The notes under the pieces were generated by a model. The model did not search any database. It was not told the DNA's origin and saw nothing but the letters and a program-made list of their open reading frames with translations. This document shows, in pieces, positions 6,510-56,219 of a stretch of DNA of 64,000 nucleotides. Source of the stretch: Eubacterium sp. Lineage in GTDB: Bacteria > Bacillota > Clostridia > Lachnospirales > Lachnospiraceae. The translations under genes were made by a program, and so were the position numbers. The stretch's first letter is position 1; every line of letters starts with the position of its first letter. Location: positions 1 through 64,000 of the forward strand of contig JAFZRN010000025.1 in assembly GCA_017619835.1 (NCBI GenBank). The letters run 5' to 3'.

Positions 6510-6599
6510 GTCTTGTTCGTACTCCCCAAATGTTTTCTAGCCATAACAAAAAAGAGCTATAGCGCTTTCTATTATACCATAAAAATATAGAAAATGTAT

Positions 6600-6665
6600 A
6601 GCAACTTTAGATAACTTTAAAGCAATATTTGAAAAGTAATTAAATGCCTTCTATGGTACTATTAT
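6600..6665 (+). promoter_or_regulatory. Promoter of the pentose operon with 21-bp-spaced direct repeats
   Basis: Two imperfect copies of AGCAAnnTTTGATAAnTA start at 6600 and 6621, exactly 21 bases apart. A -10-like TACTAT begins at 6657, 36 bases after the second copy starts. The same arrangement, with the same 21-bp period and 36-base offset, occurs before the sugar-importer gene (13773-13835). The geometry fits two adjacent AraC-family half-sites overlapping the -35 region, and an AraC-type regulator is encoded at 17715-18650. Confidence 0.6.
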
Positions 6666-6703
6666 AAGGTACGTAGTGGGCCTATGTTTTGGGGTGGTTT
6701 TCT

Positions 6704-39530: not shown

Positions 39531-39546
39531 TATTATTAACGATGAT

Positions 39547-39571
39547 CCGGCGAGAAATCGCCGGATTTTTT
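39547..39571 (+). terminator. Terminator after upp
   Basis: CCGGCGA pairs with TCGCCGG across GAAA, followed by ATTTTTT. The same TCGCCGGATTTTTT end is seen at 51021-51034, and both copies are followed by paired TGTCGTTCAC repeats. Confidence 0.88.
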
Positions 39572-39639
39572 GTCGTTCACTCAATGATTTTGTCGTTCAC
39601 TTAATGAAGCTTGAATAATTATTGAAATATGAATATTAT
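39571..39639 (+). promoter_or_regulatory. Promoter of RiPP system A with paired TGTCGTTCAC boxes
   Basis: Two perfect copies of TGTCGTTCAC start at 39571 and 39591, a 20-base period. Downstream lie TTGAAT (39611-39616) and TATTAT (39634-39639) with a 17-base spacer. The second box starts 43 bases before the -10, close to the 41 bases seen at the system C promoter (51101-51167). Direct repeats with a period near two helix turns next to the -35 are typical of response-regulator activators such as LytTR proteins; none is encoded in the window. Confidence 0.65.
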
Positions 39640-39681
39640 CAGATGTATTAAAGATTAATAATGTTTTTTGGGGGTGCCGAT

Positions 39682-41130
39682 TTGTCAAAAGGTCCATTTA
39701 TTCAATTATTTGAATCACCAAACGGTTATTATTTTTTTGACGTAAATAAAGATAAAGTAATCTCTGTAAGTGAAAGTTTATATTCGTTTTTTGATTCCTG
39801 TGAAATGATTCCTGAAGATGTTTCAAGTATTGAAGAATTAAATGTTTCTGATCAGAATCATCTGAAAACTTTAATTGCCGAAGGTTACTTAAGTGATCAT
39901 CATGTTGAAAAAATCGAACACTATAATACATCTGATCTGGAATTTCAAGTTACGAATCGAATGAAACAGTTAACTATTCAGGTTACACAGGCATGCAATC
40001 TTTGTTGCAATTATTGTCCATTTGCAAATGTAACTAATAATGCTTACCAGAGAAATCATTCTTCTAAGAGAATGGATTGGGAAACTGCAAAGAAATCAAT
40101 AGATTTATATTTAGATTGTTCTTCGGAGTTGGATGACATATGTATTGCTTTTTACGGAGGAGAACCTTTTATTGAATTTGATTTGATTGAAAAAGCTGTT
40201 TTATATGCTAACAAAGTTTTTGTTGGAAAAAGAATAAAATATACCGTAACAACAAATGGAACTTTGATGGATGATAAAATCAGGAGGTTTCTCTTTGATA
40301 ATAATTTTACTGTAATGTTCAGTATTGATGGACCTGCTTCAATTCATGATTTTAACAGAAAAAAATACGATGGAAGTGGTAGTTATTCCCTTGCTGTCGA
40401 GAACTTGAAAAAGCTAAGTGCTTTATATGGTGAAAAATCATATGAAAAATTGCTTGTTAATACTGTTATTAATCCTGAGACGGATTATGATGAAGTATTG
40501 CATTTATTTGATGATCCGTTTTTCTTAGAAAAAAAAGTATATATCAGGGCAGATATTGCTTCATCGGATCTACTAGAAAAACCGCTTGGATATCGAGATG
40601 ATTTCATTCAAAAATTTAATTATTCTCGTTTCATTTCATTAATGAGCAGATTTGGTATCGTAAAAGATATTAAGCTGGATCCCATTTCAGAAACATTCAA
40701 TAATATGTTGTTTGATCATATAAATTGGAAGGATGAAGAAAAATCAGATTTGGGTAATATTTCTGCACCTGGAGGACCTTGTATTCCGGGACAACGAAGA
40801 TTCTTTGTAAATGCAGATGGGGATTTCTATCCCTGTGAAAAGGTAAGTGAACTTGTTGATGACGTTAAGATTGGCAATATACGAGAAGGATTTGATTTTA
40901 ATAAGGCAAAGCGAATTTTAAATGTTGCACAATCTACTGAAGAAGAGTGTAAAAAATGCGTTGCTTTTAGACATTGTTCTGTTTGTGTTGCAAATATTTC
41001 TGATGAAAAAGGTATATCTGATAAGAAGAAGCTTGATCTTTGTGAAGGAATCAGAAAACGTCTGTTTAAAGATATTAAACTAATTGTTTTAGAAAAAGAA
41101 ATCAATTCAATATATAAAAGGACAATTTAA
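39682..41130 (+). CDS. Radical SAM/SPASM peptide maturase (CcpM-like), system A
   Basis: A 482-residue RiPP enzyme. The first 95 residues look like a peptide-binding (RRE-like) module. The radical SAM motif is C105-x3-C109-x2-C112 in TQACNLCCNYC, followed by FYGGEPFIE. The C-terminus has a Cys-rich SPASM region (GGPCIPGQRRFFVNADGDFYPCEK, then EECKKCVAFRHCSVC and LDLCEG) for auxiliary iron-sulfur clusters. It resembles the 'Cys-rich peptide radical SAM maturase' family (CcpM) in clostridia. I prefer the TTG at 39682 because GGGGG lies 7 bases upstream; the ATG at 39661 has no ribosome site. Confidence 0.85.
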   Translation: MSKGPFIQLFESPNGYYFFDVNKDKVISVSESLYSFFDSCEMIPEDVSSIEELNVSDQNHLKTLIAEGYLSDHHVEKIEHYNTSDLEFQVTNRMKQLTIQVTQACNLCCNYCPFANVTNNAYQRNHSSKRMDWETAKKSIDLYLDCSSELDDICIAFYGGEPFIEFDLIEKAVLYANKVFVGKRIKYTVTTNGTLMDDKIRRFLFDNNFTVMFSIDGPASIHDFNRKKYDGSGSYSLAVENLKKLSALYGEKSYEKLLVNTVINPETDYDEVLHLFDDPFFLEKKVYIRADIASSDLLEKPLGYRDDFIQKFNYSRFISLMSRFGIVKDIKLDPISETFNNMLFDHINWKDEEKSDLGNISAPGGPCIPGQRRFFVNADGDFYPCEKVSELVDDVKIGNIREGFDFNKAKRILNVAQSTEEECKKCVAFRHCSVCVANISDEKGISDKKKLDLCEGIRKRLFKDIKLIVLEKEINSIYKRTI

Positions 41131-41132
41131 TT

Positions 41133-42203
41133 ATGAAATGTGCAATATATCCATATTCCGATGATTTATATGTGCTTCTTGAACATCAGGAGAGACTGAT
41201 TGATGATATAAAAATCTGTGCAGTTATTTATCCGCCTTCATGGAGGAAACAGATATATCATATAAATTTTTTGGATAATATATCTTCGGGATCTGATTAT
41301 GAACAATTAATTGATAGTGTTGAGTGCGTGATTTTTGCTGATATCAAGGATAGAGATTATATGTATTCTGATCTTTTGCAAAAAGCTGAATGCTCATTAT
41401 CGAACGGAAAAGATGTTATATTTTGTACGAAGATTGATGAAAAAGATTTATGTAGATTTAAAAAGGATTATCCCGATTGTGCTATTACGGTAAAATACGA
41501 AAATAAGTTAGAAATAGATGATGCTATCATCTATAAACATGAAGATATCAAGTGTGCGGCTATTGGAGTTGGAGGACTATATAGAGGGTTGAACCATACA
41601 GTAGCGGTAACGGAGGTATCGTTTGAATTTCAGAAAAAAGAAATAATAACTACAACTGTAGTTGATAATGCAACGCTTACTTTACTGGGATTTTATCAAT
41701 TTCCGACCCATATATTTGAAAGTCAAACGGATATAGAACAACAGGTCGGAAAGCTAAATACATTTTTTAATAATCTGGAGAATAAAACAAGATGTGATCT
41801 TATGGTTATTCAATTTCCAGATGGATTGATGAAGTTTATGGATTCAACAATGGATGCATATGGTGTAAAAACATTTATGCTTACCAGGGCAGTTTCATTT
41901 GACTATTTTGTACTTGGTACATTGTTGGAAATCACAAATATTAAAGCATATGATTGTATCCGTTCAATACTGTCAGAACGTTTTAATCTTTCAATGGATG
42001 CATGTGTTTTTCAACCCTTAAATATTGATAGAGAAAGCTCTGATGAAGATCAGAAAATTAATTATACCAGAAATCGTATTGATGAAAGATTTGATCATTA
42101 TGACGAGCTTAAGAAAACTATGAATAATATAATTGTTGATTATTATGATGATAATAATGTTTACAGAACAATTGCGGAAGATTTTATAAAAAAATTTTCA
42201 TAA
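41133..42203 (+). CDS. Peptide maturation system protein (TIGR04066-like), system A
   Basis: A 356-residue soluble protein. It begins MKCAIYPYSDDLYVLLEHQE. A nucleotide-site-like stretch, AAIGVGGLYRGLNHT, lies near residue 145, followed by a beta-rich half (LMVIQFPDGLMKF, KTFMLTRAVSFDYFVLGTLL). I recall a family, TIGR04066, of about this length always found beside CcpM-type radical SAM enzymes and acyl-carrier-related proteins; order and style match. No catalytic residues can be named. It is two bases downstream of the maturase gene and clearly co-transcribed. Confidence 0.6.
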   Translation: MKCAIYPYSDDLYVLLEHQERLIDDIKICAVIYPPSWRKQIYHINFLDNISSGSDYEQLIDSVECVIFADIKDRDYMYSDLLQKAECSLSNGKDVIFCTKIDEKDLCRFKKDYPDCAITVKYENKLEIDDAIIYKHEDIKCAAIGVGGLYRGLNHTVAVTEVSFEFQKKEIITTTVVDNATLTLLGFYQFPTHIFESQTDIEQQVGKLNTFFNNLENKTRCDLMVIQFPDGLMKFMDSTMDAYGVKTFMLTRAVSFDYFVLGTLLEITNIKAYDCIRSILSERFNLSMDACVFQPLNIDRESSDEDQKINYTRNRIDERFDHYDELKKTMNNIIVDYYDDNNVYRTIAEDFIKKFS

Positions 42204-42220
42204 TAATGAGGAGACCGGAT

Positions 42221-42469
42221 ATGGAAAGCATAATCGAAGAAGTAAATCAAATTGCTTATAACATTAAACAGAATCCTTTATTAAATGAATCAGATTGCAT
42301 TGATCTTCCGCTTACAGGAAATCAGCTTCAATTTGATCCAATGGATATGTGTTATTTGGCATTAGAAGTAATCTCTAAGTATCATATAAAGCTGAATGCG
42401 TCTGATATATATGACCAAAGATTTAATACTATACGCTCAATTTCGGAAACGATAGCAAATAAACAATAA
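42221..42469 (+). CDS. Acyl-carrier-related protein lacking the carrier serine, system A
   Basis: An 82-residue protein with an acyl-carrier-like four-helix pattern. Where carrier proteins have D-S-L-D, this one reads D-P-M-D (in QFDPMDMCYLALEV), so the serine that bears phosphopantetheine is a proline. A cysteine follows two residues after the second Asp. It resembles the 'peptide maturation system acyl carrier-related' family. It may be a docking scaffold for LuxC/LuxE-type enzymes rather than a thioester carrier. ATG 42221 is chosen because AGGAG lies 8 bases upstream; ATG 42206 lacks a site. Confidence 0.65.
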   Translation: MESIIEEVNQIAYNIKQNPLLNESDCIDLPLTGNQLQFDPMDMCYLALEVISKYHIKLNASDIYDQRFNTIRSISETIANKQ

Positions 42470-42487
42470 ATAATCTTTGAAATCTTT

Positions 42488-42511
42488 CCAACAATGTTGG
42501 TTAGTTATAAT
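42488..42511 (+). promoter_or_regulatory. Possible internal promoter/operator before the system A peptide
   Basis: A palindrome CCAACAATGTTGG (42488-42500) precedes TATAAT (42506-42511). A TTGAAA lies at 42477-42482, but 23 bases from the -10, too far for a normal promoter. This could give extra precursor expression; the support is weak. Confidence 0.3.
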
Positions 42512-42551
42512 CTGTGAACTGGTCTTTCACAAAAGGAAGGAGGCGAAAAGT

Positions 42552-42707
42552 ATGTCATTCAATAAGAAATCTACTCTTATAAAGGATAGAGTTGTATCAT
42601 GTCCTTCAGAAACTACAACTAAGCATGGTTGTAAGTGCCCTAGCAGTGGTGTTCATAAAGAAGTTAAAATGCCCAATGATGAAATAAAAGTACATACAGG
42701 AGCATAA
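42552..42707 (+). CDS. System A precursor peptide (51 aa, three cysteines)
   Basis: A 51-residue peptide with a strong GGAAGGAGG site 8 bases before the ATG. The N-terminal 14 residues are basic (FNKKSTLIKDRVV). The middle holds C17, C27 and C29 among Ser/Thr/Pro (SCPSETTTKHGCKCPSSG), and the end is KEVKMPNDEIKVHTGA. It has no double-glycine leader, so it differs from systems B and C. Position between the acyl-carrier-like gene and the exporter, and the CcpM-type maturase, mark it as the probable substrate. The Cys-SCPS and GCKCP parts are plausible sites for radical crosslinks. I start at 42552, not at the weaker 42477 start. Confidence 0.65.
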   Translation: MSFNKKSTLIKDRVVSCPSETTTKHGCKCPSSGVHKEVKMPNDEIKVHTGA

Positions 42708-42827
42708 AGTATTTATATTTGATTTTTTAAATTGCTTTTGTAAATCTATTCGCAGTTACATGAAAATGACCAATTCATGTGCTGCGAACTTTATAATAAG
42801 CCTATTTTTGTGAAAGTATATATAGTG

Positions 42828-44483
42828 ATGTTTAAGGAAAAAAAGTATTTAAAGAATATATGGAAGCTTTTTTATAATTATCGTAGATCATTTATTATTA
42901 TTTTGACGTGTTTATTTTGCTTGCTTGGAATTAATTATTTGTTGCCTTTTTTATCAAGATCGTTAATAGATGATGGATTTATTAAGGGAGATAAAATTAA
43001 GATTCTATATACTGTGTTATCTATTTTGGGATTAAACATGGTAGTTATAATTATTAATATTTTCAAAAAAAAGCAAGCTGTTCGATTGAATATTGGTATA
43101 AGAACACAGCTTGAAAGAGAAGCTTTCCAGCATCTTCTTAATCTTAGAATATCTTATTTTTATGACAAAAATGCAACCAGCACCTATCAGTGTATACAGG
43201 AAGATATAAATAGCATTTCATCTATTGCTGATGAATCTATGATTAGTGCAGTTACTGCTCTTTTTTCTGCTATTGGTGGTGGCATAGCTTTATTTATCAT
43301 TGATTGGCGTCTTGGTTTAGCCGTAATAGCAGTAACACCGTTAGGTATAGGTGTTTCTTCGGTTTTTGCCAAGAAGAATAAAGCGCTGATTGAAAAGCTG
43401 ATTAGTCTTCACCGTCGATATAGTGGATGGTATGGAGAGACGGTACTGGGAGCAAAGGAAATTCGATTATTTGGTCTTCAAAATCATAAAAGAAAAGAAT
43501 TAGAAAAACAACTAAAAGACATTAATACTACAACTGAGAATTGTTATATGCTTCTTACATATAATGAACAGGTTCAGGATTTGCTGGTTGAATTATTAAG
43601 GGCTTTTATATATATTCTTGCAGCATTCTTAATGATAAAAAGCAAATTAACGGTTGGAAGTATTATTGCTTTTCAGACATATATGTTAATGGTCTCCGGA
43701 TCTGAATTAACGATAATACAATTATTCATTATGGTTTATTCTTTGATTCCAAATGTAAAACGATATTATGGGTTTTTAGATGAACCAACTGAAAAAAGAT
43801 CAGAAGGGCATGTTAGTTTTACAGATGGAAATATAGAATTCAAAGATATTTGTTTTTCTTACAGTAATAATCAAAAAGAAGTATTACATGATATAAATTT
43901 AAAACTATCGTATGGTGATAAAGTAGTCGTTGTTGGAGATAATGGTGTAGGAAAAACTACATTTATTAATCTTTTACTATCTTTTCTTGAACCCGATCGT
44001 GGGAAAATTATGGTAAATGGAAAGAGTATCAGCGACATAAATATTGATGAATACAGACAACTGTTTAGCGTTGTTTCACAAGAAGTATTTCTATTTAATG
44101 ATACTTTAAAAAATAATATATGTCTTGGGAAAGAGGTTTCAGATGAATTATTGGAAGATACTATCAGAGAAGTAAATCTGGAAGATTTTGTTAGGAAAAA
44201 TGGTACTGATTATATTATTACGAATAATGGAGCTAATCTTTCCGGTGGACAAAGGCAAAAGATTGCACTTGCAAGAGCTTTGATAATCAATAGGCCAATA
44301 CTTGTATTTGATGAAGCTACTTCTAATCTCGATAGAATGAGTATGAATATATTTACCGATTTATTTGAAACTAAGTTGAAAGATACTACTGTAATATGTG
44401 TTTCTCATTCAGAAGAAATAATTAACTGCTTTGATAATAGAATTAGTATTTCTGATGGATACGTTGTTATGGAACGTATATGA
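42828..44483 (+). CDS. ABC exporter (half transporter), system A
   Basis: A 551-residue half transporter. Six transmembrane segments (about 15-310) precede an ATPase domain with Walker A GDNGVGKTT, signature LSGGQRQK and Walker B ILVFDEATSNLD. It lacks an N-terminal C39 peptidase, which agrees with the lack of a double-glycine site in the system A peptide. It probably homodimerises to export the modified product. The start is uncertain: no strong ribosome site is seen at 42828 or at the upstream 42777. Confidence 0.85.
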   Translation: MFKEKKYLKNIWKLFYNYRRSFIIILTCLFCLLGINYLLPFLSRSLIDDGFIKGDKIKILYTVLSILGLNMVVIIINIFKKKQAVRLNIGIRTQLEREAFQHLLNLRISYFYDKNATSTYQCIQEDINSISSIADESMISAVTALFSAIGGGIALFIIDWRLGLAVIAVTPLGIGVSSVFAKKNKALIEKLISLHRRYSGWYGETVLGAKEIRLFGLQNHKRKELEKQLKDINTTTENCYMLLTYNEQVQDLLVELLRAFIYILAAFLMIKSKLTVGSIIAFQTYMLMVSGSELTIIQLFIMVYSLIPNVKRYYGFLDEPTEKRSEGHVSFTDGNIEFKDICFSYSNNQKEVLHDINLKLSYGDKVVVVGDNGVGKTTFINLLLSFLEPDRGKIMVNGKSISDINIDEYRQLFSVVSQEVFLFNDTLKNNICLGKEVSDELLEDTIREVNLEDFVRKNGTDYIITNNGANLSGGQRQKIALARALIINRPILVFDEATSNLDRMSMNIFTDLFETKLKDTTVICVSHSEEIINCFDNRISISDGYVVMERI

Positions 44484-44507
44484 ATGAAAAAAATCAACGG
44501 AGGTATT

Positions 44508-45944
44508 ATGGAAACAGAAACAATTAGTTTACCATTGCTTATCGGCGGAAAAGAATTCGAAGGAAATAAACATTATCAGATGGAATACGATGATTTGATC
44601 ATCCGGTATCCCATGTTGGATGATGATTTAAGAATCAAGATCACATCAATGGATCAGGATGGTATTCATGATCTATCTCTTTCTGAGATCATATCATTTT
44701 TGCATAGAGTCTCAGAATTATGGTTTGATGAAAACTATCCTCTACGTAAAAAATTAATGGAATATGGTCCGAGGATTTCAGGACAATCTCCGGAAATGTA
44801 TAAACATAATATTGGACTGCTTCTTGAACTAATATCCTGTAAAGGTTATATGTACGATATTGTTGACTATGAATTGGGTGATAAAAGATTACTTGATGAA
44901 TGGATTCCAAGAGAAAATGCAGAAGTTCACATGGAACCGTTAGGCAAACTGTTACATATCATTTCCGGAAATGTTCCTGCAGTTGGGTTTTATTCCATTA
45001 TAAGAGGATTACTTACGAAAAACGTTAATGTTGTGAAATTATCTAAAAAAGATTTTTTGTCATCATATTATTTTATAAAGTCGTTTATGGATGTTGATCC
45101 TGATCATCCGGTCACCAAGTCTTTGGCTTCTGTTTATTGGGATAAGACTGATATAGAAAACATAGAATATTTTTGCAATTCTATGAATGGAATGGTTGTA
45201 TGGGGTGGATACGATACAATAAAAACATATAAAACAAGATGTCCTGTTGGCTGCGAATTCATCGAGTATGGACCCAAAAAAGGACTTCAGATCATAGATT
45301 ATGAGAACAATCATGACGATAATTTGGAGTTGGATGTAGCAAGAGATATAAGTGTTTTTGATCAGGAAGCATGTCTTTCGCCACAGATAATATTATTAAA
45401 AGGTGGGGATATGAGAAGATTTACACTTCGTCTTATGAATGGATTATATAAATATCTTGATTTATGGCCGACGGGTAAATATTCTGATGATCATTATATT
45501 CATATGAATTATCTGGAAAGATCACATGAATATCTTGGAAATTTTGTCATACCGGAAGATGATCTTCGTTGGATGATTATTGAGTTACACAATATGACCA
45601 ACATAAATTTAGATCATCCGCTTGGAAGGACTATATATATAAAGCAAATAGAGGATTTTGATGAATGTTTGGATTATATAGATGGAAATGTACAAACGGT
45701 TGGAATATCTCCAAAATCACTTGCAAGAGATATGCGTGACAAGCTTACAAGACGTGGCGTATCCAGAATAGCTAATATAGGAAATGTTGAAATGATACTT
45801 GAAGGAACTGTACATGAAGGTATCTGTTTAAGCAGATTTGTCCGTCTTGTTGGAATGGAAAAAGAAAGAGGCTATAACGTGAAGGAATATGATTTTCCGC
45901 CGGGATACTTTAAGGATTATCCATTTAGATTAGTATGGGAGTAA
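44508..45944 (+). CDS. LuxC-type acyl-CoA/acyl-protein reductase, system A
   Basis: A 478-residue protein of the LuxC family, which reduces an acyl thioester to an aldehyde with NADPH. Diagnostic parts are ISGNVPAVGFYSIIRGLL and VVKLSKKD (nucleotide site), and the active cysteine C289 in FDQEACLSPQ. In the lux system LuxC works with LuxE, and a LuxE-type gene follows five bases after this stop, but luciferase genes luxA and luxB are absent. Here the aldehyde is more likely a product or modification of the peptide pathway. ATG 44508 is chosen because GGAGG lies 4 bases upstream; the frame also opens at 44484. Confidence 0.85.
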   Translation: METETISLPLLIGGKEFEGNKHYQMEYDDLIIRYPMLDDDLRIKITSMDQDGIHDLSLSEIISFLHRVSELWFDENYPLRKKLMEYGPRISGQSPEMYKHNIGLLLELISCKGYMYDIVDYELGDKRLLDEWIPRENAEVHMEPLGKLLHIISGNVPAVGFYSIIRGLLTKNVNVVKLSKKDFLSSYYFIKSFMDVDPDHPVTKSLASVYWDKTDIENIEYFCNSMNGMVVWGGYDTIKTYKTRCPVGCEFIEYGPKKGLQIIDYENNHDDNLELDVARDISVFDQEACLSPQIILLKGGDMRRFTLRLMNGLYKYLDLWPTGKYSDDHYIHMNYLERSHEYLGNFVIPEDDLRWMIIELHNMTNINLDHPLGRTIYIKQIEDFDECLDYIDGNVQTVGISPKSLARDMRDKLTRRGVSRIANIGNVEMILEGTVHEGICLSRFVRLVGMEKERGYNVKEYDFPPGYFKDYPFRLVWE

Positions 45945-45948
45945 ATAA

Positions 45949-46998
45949 ATGACTGATTACTTAGATGAGGAAAAAGATATAAAAGAATATACTTTTTTAG
46001 AGATAAAAAAGAGTTTTGAATATCATTATAAAAACTGTGATTCATATAGGAAATATTGCGATTTATATAGATTTACTCCGGATCAACTGAATGTTTTTGA
46101 TGATATGAACGTGATCCCGCAGATACCTACATCAATATTTAAAAGTATTGATGTTTCTTCTGTCGAGATTGAATCATGTAAATGTTGCAAAAGCAGTGGC
46201 ACAAAGGGATTGATCAGTAAAGTATATAGGAATGATGAGACCTTATGGTCATTTATGAATACAGCTGTCAAGGCTATTGATAAATTGTATGATTTTAAAC
46301 TCGATAATACTATTATATATAATCTCGGGCCATCAATTGGAGAAGCTAATGATATATGGTTTTCCTATGCTACAGGATTTCTAGATAATGTTTTAGAAAC
46401 TCATTATTATATGCATAATGGAATATTGGAATATGATAAGTTTTTGAATGATATAAGTAATAGTGATCCGGAAAAAAACACCTTTTTGCTTGGACCTCCA
46501 TCTATATATCTGAAGTTGATAAATTATATGGAGGAAAGAGAAATAAAGCTTAGTTTGTCCGATAAATCATTTGTTTTTACTGCCGGTGGTTGGAAAAACA
46601 GAAATGGAGATGTGATGACCAGAAAGTCATTTTCAGCTCTTATTGATGTTTATTTAGGTGTGAACGAATCTCATTTGTTTGATATTTTCAACCAGGTAGA
46701 ATCAAATACATTATTATTTGAATGTAAATGTCATAACAAGCATGTTCCGGCGGGATTTCATGTAATTGTACGGGATCCTGTATCATTTGAAAAAGTTGAG
46801 GATGGAAAAGAAGGTGTTATAACTTTTCTGGACTCGAGTTCAAATAGTTACCCTGCTTTTGTTATTACAGATGATATAGGATATGTGACTAATGGATGTG
46901 AATGCGGATATAAGGGGCAGGTATTCCATTACGTAAGACGTGTAAAAACTGTTGAAACAAAAGGCTGTGCCATGAAAATGGATCAGATTAATTCATGA
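45949..46998 (+). CDS. LuxE-type acyl-protein synthetase, system A
   Basis: A 349-residue adenylate-forming enzyme. The phosphate-binding loop is SSGTKG and FTAGGWK is the family's second signature. A C-terminal cysteine, C340 in TKGCAMKM, lies where LuxE carries the cysteine that accepts the acyl group. It activates a carboxylic acid with ATP, takes it onto its own Cys, and passes it to LuxC. The substrate could be a fatty acid or the peptide's own C-terminal carboxylate. GGGAG lies before the ATG. It ends the system A operon. Confidence 0.83.
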   Translation: MTDYLDEEKDIKEYTFLEIKKSFEYHYKNCDSYRKYCDLYRFTPDQLNVFDDMNVIPQIPTSIFKSIDVSSVEIESCKCCKSSGTKGLISKVYRNDETLWSFMNTAVKAIDKLYDFKLDNTIIYNLGPSIGEANDIWFSYATGFLDNVLETHYYMHNGILEYDKFLNDISNSDPEKNTFLLGPPSIYLKLINYMEEREIKLSLSDKSFVFTAGGWKNRNGDVMTRKSFSALIDVYLGVNESHLFDIFNQVESNTLLFECKCHNKHVPAGFHVIVRDPVSFEKVEDGKEGVITFLDSSSNSYPAFVITDDIGYVTNGCECGYKGQVFHYVRRVKTVETKGCAMKMDQINS

Positions 46999-47281: not shown

Positions 47282-47506
47282 ATGTGGAAAAAACCTGAAA
47301 TTCAAGAAGTAGTTATTAATGAATCAATGTTTGAAACAATGGACGATAATAGCCTCAATCAGATTGATGGAGGTAAAGACTTTGGCTGGTATGGAGGCTG
47401 TGCTGGAGTTGGAAGCGCCTGTGGTTGGAATTATGGTGGTTTAGCAATAGGTTTATGTGTAGGTTTAGGTGGTACATATGTAACTAAATATACTTATAAA
47501 TCCTGA
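47282..47506 (+). CDS. System B precursor peptide (74 aa, double-glycine leader)
   Basis: A 74-residue precursor. The leader begins MWKKPEIQEVVINE, a common opening in radical-SAM peptide precursors, and ends LNQIDGG (G30-G31), a C39-type cleavage site. The core of about 43 residues is rich in Gly, aromatics and three cysteines (C40, C47, C59), in GWYGGCAGVGSACGWNYGG. Sactionine or ranthionine thioether links from Cys are the obvious guess. GGAGG precedes the ATG, and a radical SAM gene follows 60 bases later. The C39 exporter at 54042 could mature it. Confidence 0.8.
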   Translation: MWKKPEIQEVVINESMFETMDDNSLNQIDGGKDFGWYGGCAGVGSACGWNYGGLAIGLCVGLGGTYVTKYTYKS

Positions 47507-47566
47507 TAATTTATAAGGTCTATTAAAGCAACTTTATTATATTTTATAAAAAAACTCGAGGTTAAA

Positions 47567-48964
47567 ATGTATTTATATGATAATGGGAAGAACTATATAT
47601 ATAAGGTCGAACAAACACACGAGTTATTTCATGTGAATGAAGGGACTTATTTATTGTTTAATCCATATATATTCAAGTGGGTGACAATTGATGAAATTGG
47701 AAAAGATATTCTTCAATCAATTATTCTGCATAATAATTTGAATGTTGTCAAAAATTATATAATAAATAAATATAATATAACAAAGGATATATATGAAAAT
47801 GATGCCGTTCCTTATATAAATGATTTGGTCAAGAAGGGCTTCTTATGTACTCGTTTGGGTTCAAGTGAAAAAAAAGACGTGATTGATAATTGTCTGTATT
47901 CTCCAGATAATACTGTTTTAGAATCAATGTATTTAAGCTTGGAAGAAGGTTGTAATTTAAATTGTATTTATTGTTTTAATAAAGAAAACAGAAGAAAAAG
48001 AATAAATGATAATGCTTTATCATTGGATGAGATAAAGAGTTGTTTGAAACAGTATAAGGAACTAGGTGGTCAAGGCGTAGTTTTGACAGGCGGAGAGCCG
48101 ACGCTAAACAAAAACTTTATGACTATTTGTTCGTATGCTAAAGATATGGGTTTAATTGTATCTGTAATTACAAATGGTACATATTTAAATAGTTTTGATA
48201 TAAACGATATTGTTAATAATATTGATAATTTATCAATAAGTATAGATTCGGTTGATGACTCGGAACAAAAATTGTTGTGGAAGACGAATGGTTTTTCGTA
48301 TAATGAAAACGTAAGACCTTTTTTGAAAAAATATAATGAATTTGCAACCGTTTATCATAAAAATCTAGAAATAACTATAATGCCGGTGCTTACAAGTATA
48401 AATCTAGCGACATTAAAACAAACAGTTAATGAAATTTCAAAAGAATTAAATAATGTTAATGTGAGATGGGTTATTACAAAATATGGGAATATAGGCGTAA
48501 ATGAAATTGATGAACTTTTATCTATTAGTAATTATGAATATGATAAAGCTATTTGGGATTCAATGAGTGAAAATGTTGAAAATGATTCACTTAAACAATT
48601 TGTTTTAAGTAAAGGGGGAAAAGACCCTATCACTTTTCTGCCACATAAAGTATTATGTAATCCCTCCTTTTTTATCACATATTATGGTGATGTTTATCCT
48701 TGCCAAGGTCTTGAAAATCAAGATTTTTATTTGGGAAATATAAGATATAATACACTTGATAAAATATTGAATAATGATCTCTTTAATAATCTGAAAAAAG
48801 CTTTATATATTGATAATGTATCATATTGTAAAGATTGTGAATTAAGAACTGTATGTACAAATATAAATGGCAGGCCTTGTAATAAAACCTTTGATCAAAA
48901 TTGTAAGGCTGATATAGTTTATAGATTATATATGATGACACAAAAAGTTAATCAAAATAATTAA
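47567..48964 (+). CDS. Radical SAM/SPASM peptide maturase, system B
   Basis: A 465-residue enzyme. Residues 1-95 look like a PqqD-type RiPP recognition domain (a winged-helix pattern ending NDLVKKGFL). The radical SAM motif is C129-x3-C133-x2-C136 in GCNLNCIYC, followed by TGGEPTL. The C-terminus has the SPASM pattern (LCNPSFFITYYGDVYPCQG, then SYCKDCELRTVCTN and NGRPC), so auxiliary clusters are expected, consistent with thioether formation. It lies between its precursor and the ATPase gene. It is as AT-rich as its neighbours. Confidence 0.85.
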   Translation: MYLYDNGKNYIYKVEQTHELFHVNEGTYLLFNPYIFKWVTIDEIGKDILQSIILHNNLNVVKNYIINKYNITKDIYENDAVPYINDLVKKGFLCTRLGSSEKKDVIDNCLYSPDNTVLESMYLSLEEGCNLNCIYCFNKENRRKRINDNALSLDEIKSCLKQYKELGGQGVVLTGGEPTLNKNFMTICSYAKDMGLIVSVITNGTYLNSFDINDIVNNIDNLSISIDSVDDSEQKLLWKTNGFSYNENVRPFLKKYNEFATVYHKNLEITIMPVLTSINLATLKQTVNEISKELNNVNVRWVITKYGNIGVNEIDELLSISNYEYDKAIWDSMSENVENDSLKQFVLSKGGKDPITFLPHKVLCNPSFFITYYGDVYPCQGLENQDFYLGNIRYNTLDKILNNDLFNNLKKALYIDNVSYCKDCELRTVCTNINGRPCNKTFDQNCKADIVYRLYMMTQKVNQNN

Positions 48965-48973
48965 GGTATAAAA

Positions 48974-49663
48974 ATGGATGATATGGCGTTAATAATCAAA
49001 GAAATAAAAAAATGTTATAAAAATCAATATGTTTTAAAAGGTATAAATATGTCTTTTGAAAAAGGAAAGATATATGGGATTATTGGGCCAAATGGAGTTG
49101 GCAAAACAACATTAATAAGGATAATAGCTGGTCTAAGTAATGCTGAATCTGGCAAAATCATTTATGAGGGGAAGGAAAAGACTGATAATAGGAAAATAGG
49201 ATATATTATTGAGTCTCCATATTTAATTGAATCTTTGAATGCTAAAGATAACATGAGATTATATGCTATGTTAAATGGAATTAATGATAATTCGCGAATA
49301 GATGATCTTTTAAGTTGGATAGGTTTGAAAGATGCTAATAATAAGCTTGTAAAAGATTATTCTCTTGGAATGAAGCAGCGACTTGGAATAGCTTGTACTT
49401 TGATAAAAAATCCCGATATTATATTCCTTGATGAGCCAATGAATGGCATGGATCCGGAAGGCGTTTTTACTTTACGAAGTCAACTGTTACAATTGGCGCA
49501 TGATGATAATAAGACTATTGTAGTAACAAGTCATATATTAAGTGAAATGAGTAAACTATGTGACAAGTATTACTTTATTAAAGATGGTTTAGTGATAAAG
49601 GAAATAGATGATAACGTTGATAATCTTGAAGAATTATATATGGAGTTGATAGTGGGAAAGTAA
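48974..49663 (+). CDS. ABC transporter ATPase (self-protection type), system B
   Basis: A 229-residue ATPase: Walker A GPNGVGKTT, signature SLGMKQRLG, Walker B IIFLDEPMNGMD, and a switch histidine in TSHILSE. This is the bacitracin/lantibiotic-protection (BcrA/LanF) type. With the two six-helix permeases it probably removes the system B product from the membrane of the producer. Its stop overlaps the next start by one base. A decayed second copy lies at 47048-47219. Confidence 0.85.
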   Translation: MDDMALIIKEIKKCYKNQYVLKGINMSFEKGKIYGIIGPNGVGKTTLIRIIAGLSNAESGKIIYEGKEKTDNRKIGYIIESPYLIESLNAKDNMRLYAMLNGINDNSRIDDLLSWIGLKDANNKLVKDYSLGMKQRLGIACTLIKNPDIIFLDEPMNGMDPEGVFTLRSQLLQLAHDDNKTIVVTSHILSEMSKLCDKYYFIKDGLVIKEIDDNVDNLEELYMELIVGK

Positions 49664-50346
49664 TGATAGAATTATATAAGTGTGGGAGATTTATAATACA
49701 ACACAATAAGAAACTATTATTTTTTTCTTTGCTTTTTATGATCTCATATGTGGCATTTAATATCATAACTAATGTATTTGAGGAAGAGGCAGGTATTGAG
49801 GGGATATATATAGCTAGTTGTTTTTATTTTATAGTATCTGCGGCTATATATTTTTATGATGTTGAGAAAAACAAGATAATTTCTTTGGAAATAATTAATG
49901 ATCATTCTTTGAATAATGTTTTTTGGGGAAACTATATTTGTTGCATGATCCATTATATGTTGTACATTAGTATAATTCATATAGTTTTAATGATTATATC
50001 TCCGAGTTTGTTTGCACATTCGTTTTTACATTTTTTCGTTTTTCTTATTGTTTGTTGGAAGATTATTTCTATTGTTTTCATGATCTCGTTTTTTCTCAGA
50101 CAGGCATTATTGTTAGCTGTAGCAGAATGGTTTGTATTTTCTTTTGGACATATTGTTTTATTAATCGTTAATGAAACAAAAAATATTAAATGTTTTTGGG
50201 CGTTATCATTGCTATTGCTCTCTAAAATGAATAGTGATGGTATTAATATTTTTGATTTAACCATTTGGATGGTCTTATCATTTATTGAAATTCTTGTTTT
50301 ATATAATGCTTTAAAGCTTGTTAATAGGAATGCAGAGTGGATCTGA
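49663..50346 (+). CDS. ABC transporter permease 1, system B
   Basis: A 227-residue membrane protein with about six hydrophobic segments and no conserved catalytic motif. Small permeases of this size and position next to a BcrA/LanF-type ATPase usually act in immunity to peptide antibiotics. It overlaps both its neighbours: ATPase stop by one base, permease 2 start by ATGA. Very AT-rich. Confidence 0.75.
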   Translation: MIELYKCGRFIIQHNKKLLFFSLLFMISYVAFNIITNVFEEEAGIEGIYIASCFYFIVSAAIYFYDVEKNKIISLEIINDHSLNNVFWGNYICCMIHYMLYISIIHIVLMIISPSLFAHSFLHFFVFLIVCWKIISIVFMISFFLRQALLLAVAEWFVFSFGHIVLLIVNETKNIKCFWALSLLLLSKMNSDGINIFDLTIWMVLSFIEILVLYNALKLVNRNAEWI

Positions 50347-51002
50347 TGAAAGAACTGTTTATTACAAACATATATGTTTTAATCAAAAATAAGTATTTGC
50401 ATATTTTAAACATTTTATTGTATTTATTTGCGATATCCAGCTTGATTATGTCGGATAATAATATGAATTTATGGATATATTATACTTATGTTGTAACGCA
50501 TATAGTTTTTTATTTTGGAATATATATGTATTATATGATATCCAACAGAGTAATAAGTATTCAGATAATGAATTATAACAGAATTAAGGTTTTTTACGTA
50601 GTTGTACTAGAATTATCTATATATGAAATGATAGTTATTATGGTTTTTCATTTTATTATTTCATTACGAGAGGCTAGAAGCATATTATATAATATTATTG
50701 CTTCATCTATCATATATTTTCCTTTGGTTATTGTGTGTATAATTGTATCTCTGATAATAAATAATTATATTATCTCGTCTTTTACTATTTGGTTTTTTCT
50801 TTGTTTTACGGGTTTTGTATATTTGTTTATAGAGAATAATAAGTTTATAAAAATCTTATCAGCAACTTATCATTTGCAGGAATTATCTATGAGAAGAGTT
50901 GATTATGTGGAATTATCGATATATTTAATTATGATGTTTTTACTGATTTTGTTGTTATGGTATGTTCTAAAACGATTAATTGATAAAAGGGAATACAAAT
51001 AA
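50346..51002 (+). CDS. ABC transporter permease 2, system B
   Basis: A 218-residue membrane protein with about six hydrophobic segments. It is weakly like permease 1 in general layout. ATG 50346 overlaps the permease 1 stop codon (ATGA), the usual mark of coupled translation; the in-frame GTG at 50337 is less likely. It ends the system B operon, and a terminator follows at 51011. Confidence 0.75.
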   Translation: MKELFITNIYVLIKNKYLHILNILLYLFAISSLIMSDNNMNLWIYYTYVVTHIVFYFGIYMYYMISNRVISIQIMNYNRIKVFYVVVLELSIYEMIVIMVFHFIISLREARSILYNIIASSIIYFPLVIVCIIVSLIINNYIISSFTIWFFLCFTGFVYLFIENNKFIKILSATYHLQELSMRRVDYVELSIYLIMMFLLILLLWYVLKRLIDKREYK

Positions 51003-51010
51003 ATGGAATT

Positions 51011-51035
51011 CGGCGATGTATCGCCGGATTTTTTT
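51011..51035 (+). terminator. Terminator after the system B operon
   Basis: CGGCGA pairs with TCGCCG across TGTA, followed by GATTTTTTT. It is close in sequence to the upp terminator at 39547. A second weak GCTT/AAGC hairpin with a long T-run follows at 51070-51088. Confidence 0.85.
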
Positions 51036-51100
51036 GTTGAGGGAGGCTTGTTTCTGTCAGATTAAACTGGCTTGTCAAGCTTTTTTTTGTGCATAAACCA

Positions 51101-51167
51101 TGTCGTTCACACAAAAATCGTGTCGTTCACACAGTGAATATAGATTAAATGGTTAAATACATATAAT
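51101..51167 (+). promoter_or_regulatory. Promoter of RiPP system C with paired TGTCGTTCAC boxes
   Basis: Perfect TGTCGTTCAC copies start at 51101 and 51121, exactly 20 bases apart as in the system A promoter. A consensus -10 TATAAT lies at 51162-51167, 41 bases after the second box starts. No good -35 is seen (TATAGA at the expected place), so activation by a bound regulator is likely. Confidence 0.65.
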
Positions 51168-51217
51168 ATTTTAACGTAACTAAGTCGTTTGTCTTTTGAA
51201 GAAAGGAGAATGGAAAA

Positions 51218-51439
51218 ATGAAAAAAGACGAAACAAAAAACACTGAGTATGAAAGAGCCGAAATGGTTCCAATGTCAGATCTAGAAATGGAAAACTATAA
51301 CGGTGGTGGAGGAGTTCTTATAGTTCCTATCGCAGTAATCGCTTTAGTTGTTGGTTATATTGCTGCTATTGGTGTTGAAGTTCTTTGGGAGCATGTTGTA
51401 GCTCCGAAGACAGATCTTTATAAGGGGCCGTATACATAG
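51218..51439 (+). CDS. System C precursor peptide (73 aa, hydrophobic core)
   Basis: A 73-residue precursor. The leader is acidic and ends LEMENYNGGGG (G29-G32), which suits C39-type cleavage after a Gly-Gly pair. The core starts with a long hydrophobic stretch (VLIVPIAVIALVVGYIAAIG) and ends VLWEHVVAPKTDLYKGPYT, with no cysteine at all. A membrane-active toxin is likely, and an SdpI-type immunity gene in the same cluster agrees with that. GAAAGGAG precedes the ATG. The radical SAM gene starts two bases after the stop. Confidence 0.8.
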   Translation: MKKDETKNTEYERAEMVPMSDLEMENYNGGGGVLIVPIAVIALVVGYIAAIGVEVLWEHVVAPKTDLYKGPYT

Positions 51440-51440
51440 G

Positions 51441-52460
51441 ATGGAAAATTTAGAAAATAAAGCATTATTTGATAAGATGATCAAAAATGTTAATGCACAA
51501 AACCTTGAGGCTCCATTTTCTGTAGCTTTTACTGTTACAAGAAAATGTAATTATCTTTGTAGACATTGTTATAATAATAGTGGTGCTAATGTTACTGATG
51601 AAATGACAGATGATGAATTAATCGATGTTGCTCATCAGATAGCTGAACTTCATCCCACAGACGTTTGTCTTTGTGGTGGAGAACCGCTTATCAGAGGTGA
51701 TGTCATATATAAGATCATCGACATATTGATTAAAGATGTTGGCTCAGTAAATATTGTATCAAATGGTTTCTTGATCGATTTAGATACCTCAAAAAAACTT
51801 AAAGAACATGGAATTAATACATTACAGATAAGTCTTGACGGTAATACGGACTTTCTTCATAATTTTATGAGGATGAATTCAAAAGCTTTTTCAAGAGCTA
51901 TAAGTGCAATAAAAAATGGAGTAGAAAGCGGTCTCAATGTGGCTGTTTCTTGTTGTCCTAACAAACTAAACATAAATCATATTGAGGAAATATGTGAATT
52001 AACCAACAGCCTTGGAGCAACTGAGATAAGACTTATGCCTCTTATTCTAATGGGGCGTGGGTCGCAGATGGAAATGTTTCAGCCAAGTGCAGATGAATAT
52101 TTGATTCTTCAGCAAAAAGTAAAACAGTTAAATGATAAGTATACCAGAATGACTGTTGAATGGGGGGATCCTGTTGACCATTTATTCAGAATGCCTTCAA
52201 ATGGAGAAAAAAATATTACTTCTTTCTCTATGGAAATAAGATCAAATGGAAAAATATCAATATCTTCATATTTGCCAATTGTTGTTGGTGATGTAAGACA
52301 ACATACTTTAAAAGAGTATTGGAATGCTGGATTTAATCATATTTGGAGTAACAAAAAGATTTTAAAACTGATTGATGGAATTTATTCTACTTCTCAAATT
52401 TCGAATTATAATCCTATGGCATATACGGGTAAAGATATTGAAGTATTAATTCCGGTTTAA
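51441..52460 (+). CDS. Short radical SAM enzyme without auxiliary-cluster cysteines, system C
   Basis: A 339-residue enzyme. The radical SAM motif is C36-x3-C40-x2-C43 in RKCNYLCRHC, followed by LCGGEPLIRG. The C-terminal region keeps a SPASM-like outline (IRSNGKISISSYLPIVVGDVRQ, then LKEYWNAG), but it contains no cysteine, so no auxiliary clusters can form. There is no N-terminal recognition domain; the next gene supplies one. Since the precursor lacks Cys, the chemistry is probably not a thioether: epimerisation, methylation or a carbon-carbon or carbon-oxygen crosslink are possible. Confidence 0.83.
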   Translation: MENLENKALFDKMIKNVNAQNLEAPFSVAFTVTRKCNYLCRHCYNNSGANVTDEMTDDELIDVAHQIAELHPTDVCLCGGEPLIRGDVIYKIIDILIKDVGSVNIVSNGFLIDLDTSKKLKEHGINTLQISLDGNTDFLHNFMRMNSKAFSRAISAIKNGVESGLNVAVSCCPNKLNINHIEEICELTNSLGATEIRLMPLILMGRGSQMEMFQPSADEYLILQQKVKQLNDKYTRMTVEWGDPVDHLFRMPSNGEKNITSFSMEIRSNGKISISSYLPIVVGDVRQHTLKEYWNAGFNHIWSNKKILKLIDGIYSTSQISNYNPMAYTGKDIEVLIPV

Positions 52461-52470
52461 GGAGAAGACC

Positions 52471-53247
52471 ATGAAATATACTGTTAATAATGTAGATTAT
52501 TTTGTTAGAGACGACGCTGACGTTTCTGTTATATTTGTTAAAGATACTGCTCAAAGATTCATGCTTAATAAATCAGGGATGGCTATTTTTCAGTCTATTC
52601 TTGATAACAATGATACTGATGATGTATTAGATATATATACAGAAAAGTATCCTCAGGTATCCAATGATATTCTGCTTCAGGACATAAATGATATTTATAA
52701 TATAATGAATATCTTTGATATGGTCAGTGAAGTGGATAGGGGGCCGATTGATTCATTATATGGAATTGAAGCTTTAAATGAAGATGATTATAAGATTGCT
52801 TCGGATTTTATCAAATCAAATTTACGTCCAGATTGTTTACTTCCTTCAATGAATGGTAAGTATTATACTGCACAAAATATCCGTTTTTTAATCATGACAG
52901 ATAAGGAGTATTTCTACTGTAATAAATCTGATGGCGAAATTGATATGCTTGTTTCCATAAATCCGAACGTTGGAAACATTAATGTTATTAATGTTGTCAC
53001 GGTTGCTTTTAAATCTGATTTAAGTGATGATTATAAGGTTTCTCTGTTTGAGTCAATTCTTGAGCATATTAAGAAAAATATGGTGAAGCCGGTAACAAAA
53101 TTCAGAATTTCAATTCTTTCTGAAAAGAACTGTTTAGATCAGATTAAGTTTTTAAGTCTATTTAAATCCGTTGGATTTGAATTGGAAGCAGAATTGGAAA
53201 AAGAAACTGAAAAGGAAAGTCTGTTTATTTTCTCAAAAAAAATATAA
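52471..53247 (+). CDS. RRE-like domain fused to GNAT-like domain, system C
   Basis: A 258-residue soluble protein. Residues 1-95 resemble a PqqD-type peptide-recognition domain (VNNVDYFVRDDADVSV, LNKSGMAIFQSIL, then helices). Residues about 100-258 have the strand/helix rhythm of a GNAT acyltransferase and end with the typical SVGFELEAELE...SLFIFSKK pattern; the acetyl-CoA loop is not clear. It probably presents the leader to the stand-alone radical SAM enzyme, and may acylate the product or only bind it. GGAG precedes the ATG. The assignment of both domains is by eye. Confidence 0.55.
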   Translation: MKYTVNNVDYFVRDDADVSVIFVKDTAQRFMLNKSGMAIFQSILDNNDTDDVLDIYTEKYPQVSNDILLQDINDIYNIMNIFDMVSEVDRGPIDSLYGIEALNEDDYKIASDFIKSNLRPDCLLPSMNGKYYTAQNIRFLIMTDKEYFYCNKSDGEIDMLVSINPNVGNINVINVVTVAFKSDLSDDYKVSLFESILEHIKKNMVKPVTKFRISILSEKNCLDQIKFLSLFKSVGFELEAELEKETEKESLFIFSKKI

Positions 53248-53321
53248 TATACTCTCTCTCATTGTATATTGTTTTTCTTGATTTTTATTAACCTATAAGG
53301 GTATTATTGGTTCATATAGCT

Positions 53322-53364
53322 AAAGATTCTCTTAATAGGTTAATATTAATCAAGGAATCTTTTT
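53322..53364 (+). terminator. Stem-loop before the SdpI-like gene
   Basis: AAAGATTC pairs with GAATCTTT around an inner TTAAT/ATTAA stem, followed by TT. It may end or attenuate the precursor-maturase transcript, so the immunity and export genes could be made at a lower level. Confidence 0.55.
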
Positions 53365-53417
53365 ATTTCCGGATATTGCGTGAAATAGTGATATGGTATT
53401 TATACGAGGATGATGAT

Positions 53418-53999
53418 ATGAAAAAATTGATATATATTATTCCAGTTTTAACGCTTATTTATGCGATTGTAATGTGGTTTATTCTTCCGGATATTGTGCC
53501 AACTCATTTTGGTATATCTGGTAATGTTGATGCGTACGGAAGTAAAAATCTGTTATTTGTGATTCCTTTTGTATCATTTGCCTTTATAATTCTATCTAAA
53601 ACCGAGCTACAAAAAAATCAAATGATGTATGTACTTTCAATGTCCCTTTTGTTTTATGTTGAAATAATAATGGGCTTAAGTATGAAAAAACCTGATTTAG
53701 ATATCATAGCGTTGTTTTTTGTCGGATTTGGAATAATAATGATTTTGATAGGAATTATACTTCCTTCAAGTGAAACTAGTATAATTGTCGGAATAAGGAC
53801 AAAATGGACTCTTAGAAGTAAAGAGGTCTGGGAAAGAACTCATTTATTTGCAAGAATTATTTTTATCGTTGCAGGTGTGCTGGTTATTCTATCTTCGATA
53901 TTACTTAAAGGTAGTATTCGTTTTACAGTTTCGTTTGTTATTGCTATAATAGCTGTATTGATTCCTGCAGTCTATTCATATTTTATATCAGAAAAATAA
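53418..53999 (+). CDS. SdpI-family immunity-like membrane protein, system C
   Basis: A 193-residue membrane protein with about six hydrophobic segments. The N-terminal part has the DUF1648-like TLIYAIVMWFILPDIVPTHFG. The C-terminal part holds the SdpI hallmark GIRTKWTLRSKEVWERTH. SdpI protects Bacillus subtilis against the sporulation-delaying toxin SdpC, which is also a hydrophobic peptide. Here it is probably the immunity protein for the system C peptide. ATG 53418 is preferred because GAGGA lies upstream; the frame is open to 53307. Confidence 0.8.
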   Translation: MKKLIYIIPVLTLIYAIVMWFILPDIVPTHFGISGNVDAYGSKNLLFVIPFVSFAFIILSKTELQKNQMMYVLSMSLLFYVEIIMGLSMKKPDLDIIALFFVGFGIIMILIGIILPSSETSIIVGIRTKWTLRSKEVWERTHLFARIIFIVAGVLVILSSILLKGSIRFTVSFVIAIIAVLIPAVYSYFISEK

Positions 54000-54041
54000 T
54001 ATATAACTATATATATCTATACTTTTATTAAGGGATTTAAA

Positions 54042-56201: not shown

Positions 56202-56219
56202 TTTGGGAGAAAAGATTAA

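Follow-up and report, generated by a model that had tools for sequence, protein, structure and literature searches.

Two kinds of described system come close to the locus considered here. The first is the fatty acid reductase of bioluminescence, in which LuxE activates the acid with ATP and moves the acyl group onto its own cysteine, from where it passes to a cysteine of LuxC and is reduced with NADPH to the aldehyde. LuxC, LuxD and LuxE recycle the fatty acid to aldehyde, which in vivo is tetradecanal, according to the accessible part of the source (PMC5619816). The second is the CcpM system, represented by SacP23 of Paenibacillus polymyxa, whose description, in its accessible part, includes a radical S-adenosylmethionine (SAM) maturase, TIGR04066 and TIGR04069 proteins, an ATP-binding cassette (ABC) transporter and a small Cys peptide (PMC10731318). 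When expressed in Bacillus subtilis, SacP23 is antibacterial, and its product, of m/z 3404 and with a blocked N-terminus, has an unsolved structure (PMC10731318). The operon described here lies in a 64,000-nucleotide stretch (the window) that covers positions 1 to 64,000 of contig JAFZRN010000025.1 of Eubacterium sp. (Lachnospiraceae; GenBank assembly GCA_017619835.1). Its seven plus-strand genes (39,682–46,998) encode a maturase, a TIGR04066-like protein, a protein resembling acyl carrier proteins (ACP-like), a precursor peptide, an ABC exporter, LuxC and LuxE. We tentatively read it as a variant of a CcpM-type operon for a ribosomally synthesised and post-translationally modified peptide (RiPP) that acquired a LuxC–LuxE fatty acid reductase of the bioluminescence type and whose product would be a lipidated, crosslinked peptide. 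The chance that this reading is correct appears somewhat short of even; that LuxC and LuxE belong to the peptide operon is, on the genomic evidence, far surer.

The membership of LuxC and LuxE in the peptide operon, which had been proposed in an earlier note on this DNA, was upheld by a second genome. When 84,980 species genomes were scanned for LuxC proteins close to that of the window, a single locus (L014) emerged, in a metagenome-assembled genome labelled Ruminococcus sp. Phil11. Its gene order is that of the window: maturase, TIGR04066-like protein, ACP-like protein, a run of precursors (seven versus one in the window), ABC exporter, two extra genes, LuxC and LuxE. Identities between the two loci are 59% for the maturase, 55% for the TIGR04066-like protein, 57% for the ACP-like protein, 60% for the exporter, 67% for LuxC and 56% for LuxE. 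The two extra genes, located between the peptide exporter and luxC, encode HlyD-like and MacB-like exporter parts, neither of them an enzyme that would use an aldehyde. The recurrence of the same gene set in a second genome means that the link with LuxC and LuxE is not an accident of one contig. Further, the upstream neighbour of the operon in the window, presumably the uracil phosphoribosyltransferase gene upp, has a 71% identical counterpart in Phil11 on a different contig, so that the gene set, its order unchanged, is either mobile or retained as a block. The two hosts seem to be distantly related and to belong to different families, as judged from their distinct family genome samples.

The combination appears to be rare and is known here from these two genomes. 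In samples that overlap one another, the sole close LuxC was each time that of the window genome (G000) or of Phil11 (G887) itself. For the window genome this was one among 397 genomes of its family (with three further matches at 27–30% identity), 391 of its class (eleven others at 26–31%) and 61 of its genus, and for Phil11 one among 396 genomes of the family, 30 of the genus and 245 of the order. The phylum sample of 319 genomes held the window's own close LuxC and two matches at 28–29% (G1803, G1653). The viral collection gave no match for LuxC, for a two-row LuxC alignment or for LuxE, and LuxC occurred in 54 plasmid records, the 20 listed all being at most 31.5% identical.

All the genes named in the earlier note were recovered at their place and strand by open reading frame (ORF) calls and family scans, and the intergenic gaps along the operon measure 2, 2, 82, 69, 24 and 4 bp. 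The CcpM-like radical SAM/SPASM peptide maturase (39,682–41,130; TIGR04068 at 431.9 bits, PF04055, PF13186) is followed by the TIGR04066-like maturation-system protein (41,133–42,203), which aligns with 11 proteins of other CcpM-type loci, and by the TIGR04069-like ACP-related protein (42,206–42,469). Next come the 51-residue precursor, of the form KKS...RVVSC...GCKC (42,552–42,707), called as an ORF and supported by profile and alignment with the L014 precursors, and the ABC exporter with its membrane and ATPase domains (42,777–44,483; PF00664, PF00005). The LuxC-type acyl reductase (44,508–45,944) and the LuxE-type acyl-protein synthetase (45,949–46,998) close the operon, 24 bp behind the exporter and 4 bp apart. 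Translation of the maturase likely begins at the TTG at 39,682, the start also preferred in the earlier note, rather than at the ATG at 39,661 that opens the longest ORF, because the start of the maturase in the L014 genome, which has a clear ribosome site (L044, 12369), aligns within about two codons of it. The LuxC start is most likely at 44,508, methionine 9 of the longest ORF, since this residue aligns with the start of LuxC in L014; the catalytic cysteine is therefore numbered C289 (C297 in the longest ORF). With this start, the alignment agrees with the catalytic residues previously assigned, C289 in LuxC and C340 in LuxE. The Pfam scan found no C39 peptidase domain (PF03412) in the exporter, domain scans found no protease domain in the window's genes or in the two extra genes of L014, and LuxA, LuxB and LuxD are absent among the operon's genes.

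The nature of the Lux pair is indicated by several comparisons. Both Pfam domains are above cut-off in the two adjacent genes, PF05893 on LuxC (E 4e-80, 270.1 bits) and PF04443 on LuxE (E 7e-58, 196.8 bits), and the motifs DQEAC of LuxC and KGC of LuxE align with the catalytic cysteine motifs of the LuxC and LuxE of a lux cassette. The only solved structure matching LuxC at E 0.01 was chain A of 7xc6 (E 2e-72; residues 16–468 to 4–456), and LuxE matched chain E (E 2e-56; residues 6–345 to 33–369), with a phenylacetate-CoA ligase as a weak second match. The pair thus resembles the 7xc6 bioluminescence reductase nearly end to end and in both catalytic cysteines; the luminous systems differ in that the operon has no LuxA, LuxB or LuxD and sits beside a RiPP maturase. 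With the long-chain models NF052251 and NF052244, the window proteins score 289.6 and 226 bits and those of L014 285.9 and 209.6 bits, compared with 89.5–115.1 and 77.7–109.2 bits for three other Clostridia pairs. Plasmid NZ_OQ683454 carries a lux cassette, presumably of Photorhabdus type, that reaches 898 and 699.5 bits, above the cut-offs of both models. Identity to the LuxC and LuxE of this cassette (31.5% and 33.0%) is higher than to any compared protein outside L014, and in trees of 21 LuxC and 19 LuxE sequences the window and L014 proteins cluster with it, with support of 89/95 for LuxC and 89/87 for LuxE. The long-chain model scores, the grouping with the lux cassette and the 7xc6 alignment together favour a fatty acid as the substrate of the pair.

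The remaining genes relate the operon to CcpM. The gene set of that system (maturase, TIGR04066, TIGR04069, peptide and ABC transporter) is together in the window, in the form of relatives that score below cut-off: the maturase reaches 431.9 bits in the window and 450.9 in L014 with TIGR04068 (cut-off 500), the second protein 89 and 95.3 bits with TIGR04066 (cut-off 200) and the third 35.5 and 17.5 bits with TIGR04069 (cut-off 70). The labels given in the earlier note, CcpM-like, TIGR04066-like and ACP-like, consequently hold as recognisable resemblances and not as curated assignments. Because all three proteins stay below the curated cut-offs in both genomes, the operon is, by sequence, sister to the CcpM system and diverged from it, rather than one of its ordinary members. 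The precursor is also of another kind than in CcpM systems of the SacP23 type. It has no Pfam family above cut-off and no NCBIfam family, with no match at E 0.1, that of the CLI_3235-type precursors (TIGR04065) included, and two of the seven L014 precursors, tested at E 0.01, gave no NCBIfam match either. A further difference concerns the accessory genes, since the SacP23 gene table, in the accessible part of the paper, lists a subtilisin-like protease and neither LuxC nor LuxE (PMC10731318).

To place the pairing among CcpM-type loci, TIGR04068 at E 1e-80 was applied to 146 related genomes, which yielded 13 maturase genes in nine genomes, nine of these genes being above the curated cut-off. 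The 12 maturase genes other than that of the window, from eight genomes, were taken with their flanks as 11 stretches (L015–L025), several of them short (L015 3.4 kb, L021 4.5 kb, L025 5.3 kb, L016 11.2 kb and L023 11.9 kb), and compared by tblastn at E 1e-3. No match to LuxC or LuxE was found beside any of the 12 in these stretches. A general co-occurrence of LuxC and LuxE with CcpM was accordingly rejected, and the count proposed in the earlier note comes to 0 of 12 within the stretches examined. Among plasmids, nine records hold distant maturases; one of them, plasmid pEG001 of Enterococcus gallinarum (L069, 9013–9543), carries a short gene for a radical SAM protein that shares 41% identity with a part of the maturase of the window; this gene lies near a group II intron gene and looks like a remnant.

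The converse comparison covered 14 other Clostridia LuxC loci from the family and class samples (one, L045, of only 3.8 kb). LuxE adjoins LuxC or is fused to it in all 14, and the pairs are about 21–29% identical to that of the window and fall elsewhere in the trees. No CcpM, TIGR04066-like or ACP-like gene was found in any of the 14, apart from a weak match to a radical SAM protein in L046 (28% over 111 residues); L048 and L056 gave general ABC matches. Of ten neighbouring genes from L046, L048, L049, L050 and L057, one is without match and the others belong to families of transporters, ligases, dehydrogenases, GNAT proteins and sigma-54 regulators. In L046, from a genome of the window's own family, LuxE and LuxC form a single open frame of 827 residues (5549–8032), a natural LuxE–LuxC fusion. 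Another setting for these enzymes is provided by the flagellar glycan islands of Aeromonas, where, according to the accessible part of the source, LuxE and LuxC share an island with genes for carriers and ligases (PMC7874193). As to whether relatives carry LuxC and LuxE without the maturase, a point raised in the earlier note, there is no close case, and the distant pairs stand without it in 14 of 14 loci. LuxC and LuxE are thus not usual in CcpM systems (0 of 12), nor CcpM in LuxE–LuxC loci (0 of 14), and it is the pairing that would define the variant.

A role for the ACP-like protein as an acyl carrier was rejected because the phosphopantetheine serine is replaced by proline in the window and by histidine in L014. 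In an alignment of 13 ACP-like proteins from CcpM-type loci, these two included and the last two rows being under the inclusion line, the residues at this position are, in order, P, H, A, P, P, D, V, S, P, P, P, V and Y, so that serine occurs in one of 13. The resemblance of the window protein to carriers consists in a weak PRK09184 match. Because most TIGR04069-like proteins of CcpM-type loci have no carrier serine, the family name "acyl carrier-related" may be misleading. The protein is also present in loci that have neither LuxC nor LuxE, so that service to the Lux pair is not the reason for its existence.

The precursors carry the remaining information about the product. That of the window aligns with six of the seven in L014; the seventh was recovered at 5180–5314 with a profile in whose construction its row had been mis-framed, and its sequence was read by eye. 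The L014 precursors begin at 3188, 3509, 3813, 4162, 4515, 4859 and 5180. All follow a shared plan, with a short leader containing KK, a VSC motif (seven of eight precursors), a variable stretch, a CxC motif (8/8) and a variable tail; CxC is followed by xG in each of the seven from L014. Cys-rich ORFs beside other CcpM-type maturases differ, with LQAY or EAY stretches ahead of C-x-C runs.

These elements can be assembled into a route that would end in a lipidated, crosslinked peptide. LuxE would activate a free fatty acid with ATP and move the acyl group onto its own C340, as expected from Lux chemistry; the acyl group would pass to C289 of LuxC and be reduced with NADPH to a fatty aldehyde. 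The maturase would crosslink the cysteines of the precursor core (C...CxC), with the ACP-like and TIGR04066-like proteins as putative peptide-handling partners. An amine or thiol of the peptide would then capture the aldehyde, and the ABC transporter would export the lipidated, crosslinked product. Several observations weigh against this route. There is no obvious enzyme among the operon genes for joining aldehyde to peptide, and no product of the operon is known, the thioether crosslinks and the formation of an aldehyde being predictions from the genes. LuxD, a member of the reductase complex of luminous bacteria in the accessible part of PMC5619816, is missing from the operon. Both Lux proteins miss the equivalog cut-offs of NF052251 (750 bits) and NF052244 (550 bits). 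The tree support for grouping with the lux cassette is below the 95/80 mark and the branches are long, the LuxC group also takes in a Paraburkholderia row, and the window LuxC was flagged in the tree analysis for an odd letter make-up. The first cysteine, that of VSC, is missing from the first L014 precursor (P1), one of the eight, and the whole set is carried by only two of the genomes searched.

The best surviving alternative is that the peptide itself becomes the aldehyde: LuxE would activate a carboxylate of the precursor, at a trimmed C-terminus or on an Asp or Glu side chain, LuxC would reduce it, and the product may close a ring on Cys or Lys. It would fit the other operon proteins, which look like peptide maturation and export, and the conserved cysteines (VSC in 7/8, CxC in 8/8) could trap the aldehyde. 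Against it, the eight precursors end in A, I, I, Y, D, Y, Y and S, and this lack of conservation tells against a carboxylate being reduced at the intact C-terminus, though not at one exposed by prior removal of the tail. The domain scans detected no protease domain in the window's genes or in either extra gene of L014; moreover, the enzymes look like fatty acid LuxC and LuxE. The earlier note had offered both a peptide aldehyde made from the C-terminal carboxylate and attachment of a fatty aldehyde, and the first of these would probably require a trimmed tail. Fatty-aldehyde lipidation is ranked above it on account of the unconserved C-termini and the fatty-acid character of the Lux enzymes, and we regard a peptide aldehyde as unlikely. 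Its boldest form, in which a luminescence-type ATP- and NADPH-dependent reductase would turn a ribosomal peptide's own carboxylate into an aldehyde that rings onto a conserved Cys or Lys, is improbable.

It is rather unlikely that the fatty aldehyde remains unbound and acts as a separate small molecule, alone or as the partner of the peptide (a signal, a co-antimicrobial or a membrane change). The operon has no recognised joining enzyme, and the extra exporter pair between peptide exporter and luxC in L014 could export another product; however, the Lux genes are co-inherited with the maturase in one operon, in the same order, in two genomes. A third alternative is direct acylation, in which the acyl group would be transferred without net reduction to a Cys, a Lys or the N-terminus of the peptide and LuxC would serve as an acyltransferase. 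LuxE and LuxC both carry acyl groups on cysteines, the Cys and Lys residues of the precursors are conserved, and the title of an older paper speaks of the reductase component as having acyltransferase activity. Such a transfer would need less than a LuxC that resembles the reductase over almost its whole length, and we give this alternative a low probability. Finally, that LuxC and LuxE are passengers serving another process and stand at the operon end by chance is very improbable, even with LuxE–LuxC pairs that lack CcpM in all 14 other Clostridia loci and 12 other CcpM-type maturase genes that lack LuxC and LuxE in the stretches examined, because a close LuxC was found only beside this type of maturase, in two of two genomes and in the same order, and because the exporter, LuxC and LuxE genes are tightly spaced in the window.

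A conserved element, CTGTGAACTGGTCTTTCAC (42,512–42,530, plus strand, its sole match in the window), lies 5′ of the ribosome site of the precursor gene. An element of this kind is found just 5′ of the ribosome site in all eight precursors, in L014 at 3147, 3468, 3771, 4120, 4473, 4817 and 5144. The degenerate form CTGTGAACYGGTCWTTCAC, whose Y and W were chosen to cover the window's own letters, has a single match in the window, with 0.04 expected at up to three mismatches. Without its first C, the element is an 18-mer with one occurrence in the 2.7-Mb genome of the window and four exact copies in Phil11, all in the precursor array; the remaining three copies of L014 are one or two bases off the commonest form. 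The element is thus nearly identical across genomes whose proteins are only 55–67% alike. At up to four mismatches it is absent from the 11 CcpM-type stretches L015–L025 and from two Enterococcus plasmid stretches. Its inverted halves GTGAA and TTCAC can pair as a small hairpin, which is nearly invariant, one of six pairs being changed on both sides. Compared with shuffled sequences, the upstream hairpin folds better in five of the eight copies (P up to 0.032) and not in P4 (0.45), P6 (0.56) or the window (0.40). The stretch from the window likewise showed no folding advantage over shuffled sequences (z −0.38), and Rfam gave one weak match, far under cut-off. Because the element hardly varies, an RNA and a DNA function are not distinguishable from its sequence. 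A second repeated sequence of 38 nt (CCGCAGCTGCGCAAATCTGACC...) is present in L014 (3366–5403) in six copies, between and after the precursor genes.

Ahead of the operon, a terminator-like hairpin (39,544–39,567) lies 3′ of the upp-like gene and is followed by two exact direct repeats TGTCGTTCAC with a 20-bp period (39,571–39,600, plus strand), which may serve the operon promoter as an operator; 33 bp past the second repeat, at 39,634, stands a −10-like TATTAT. The same TGTCGTTCAC-N10-TGTCGTTCAC pair occurs at 51,101–51,130, ahead of a second peptide operon, with TATAAT 31 bp further on (51,162). A pattern made post hoc from the 39,571 site matches only these two places in the window, with 0.00 expected. 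Similar pairs, one exact and one mismatched, are present near 66.9 kb of the contig, one per strand (L076, 2899 on the minus and 2947 on the plus strand), and the plus-strand pair precedes an AMP-binding ligase cluster; it is possible that the pairs form a shared operator of the two peptide operons and the ligase cluster. None was found in L014, L044 or eight other CcpM-type stretches scanned. Such direct repeats resemble the operators of LytTR-type bacteriocin regulators; the scan of flanking proteins, which covered a part of the neighbours, found no regulator of this type.

Near 40 kb the G+C content drops from about 43% to about 30%, and up to about 60 kb it remains under 35%; this sharp fall suggests that the region from 40 to 60 kb is an acquired island of specialised-metabolism genes. 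The second peptide system of the window (47,282–58,088) comprises GG-leader-like peptides at 47,282 and, by eye, at 51,218, radical SAM genes at 47,567 and 51,441, an ABC ATPase at 48,974, an SdpI-like gene at 53,307, a C39-peptidase exporter at 54,042 and an HlyD gene at 56,220. The ligase cluster behind the TGTCGTTCAC pair (L076, 3080–11927; about 67–76 kb of the contig) holds three ligases of the AMP-binding type (a carrier domain is present in one of them), an ABC ATPase, two small carrier-protein-like ORFs seen by eye and a weak BtrH_N match under cut-off.

Known lipidated RiPPs use prenyl- or acyltransferases. They include the prenylated lanthipeptides, which, in the accessible part of the source, carry a lipid on a ribosomal peptide, as the product here would if it is lipidated (PMC12715784). 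Among the literature matches listed, there was none for lipidated RiPPs with LuxC and LuxE or for a LuxC/LuxE RiPP, nothing on CcpM with a radical SAM enzyme and a Cys-rich peptide, and nothing that joins LuxC, LuxE, radical SAM and RiPP. If lipidation by way of a fatty aldehyde, or the making of a peptide aldehyde, is borne out, it would join fatty-aldehyde or peptide-aldehyde chemistry to ribosomal peptides by a route new to those matches. It would also mean that the LuxC/LuxE pair is used apart from light, in relatives of Ruminococcus whose anaerobic life probably could not sustain an oxygen-requiring luciferase. Amines and thiols are targets of aldehydes, and peptide aldehydes are protease inhibitors, so the products of such operons could be antimicrobials or signals.

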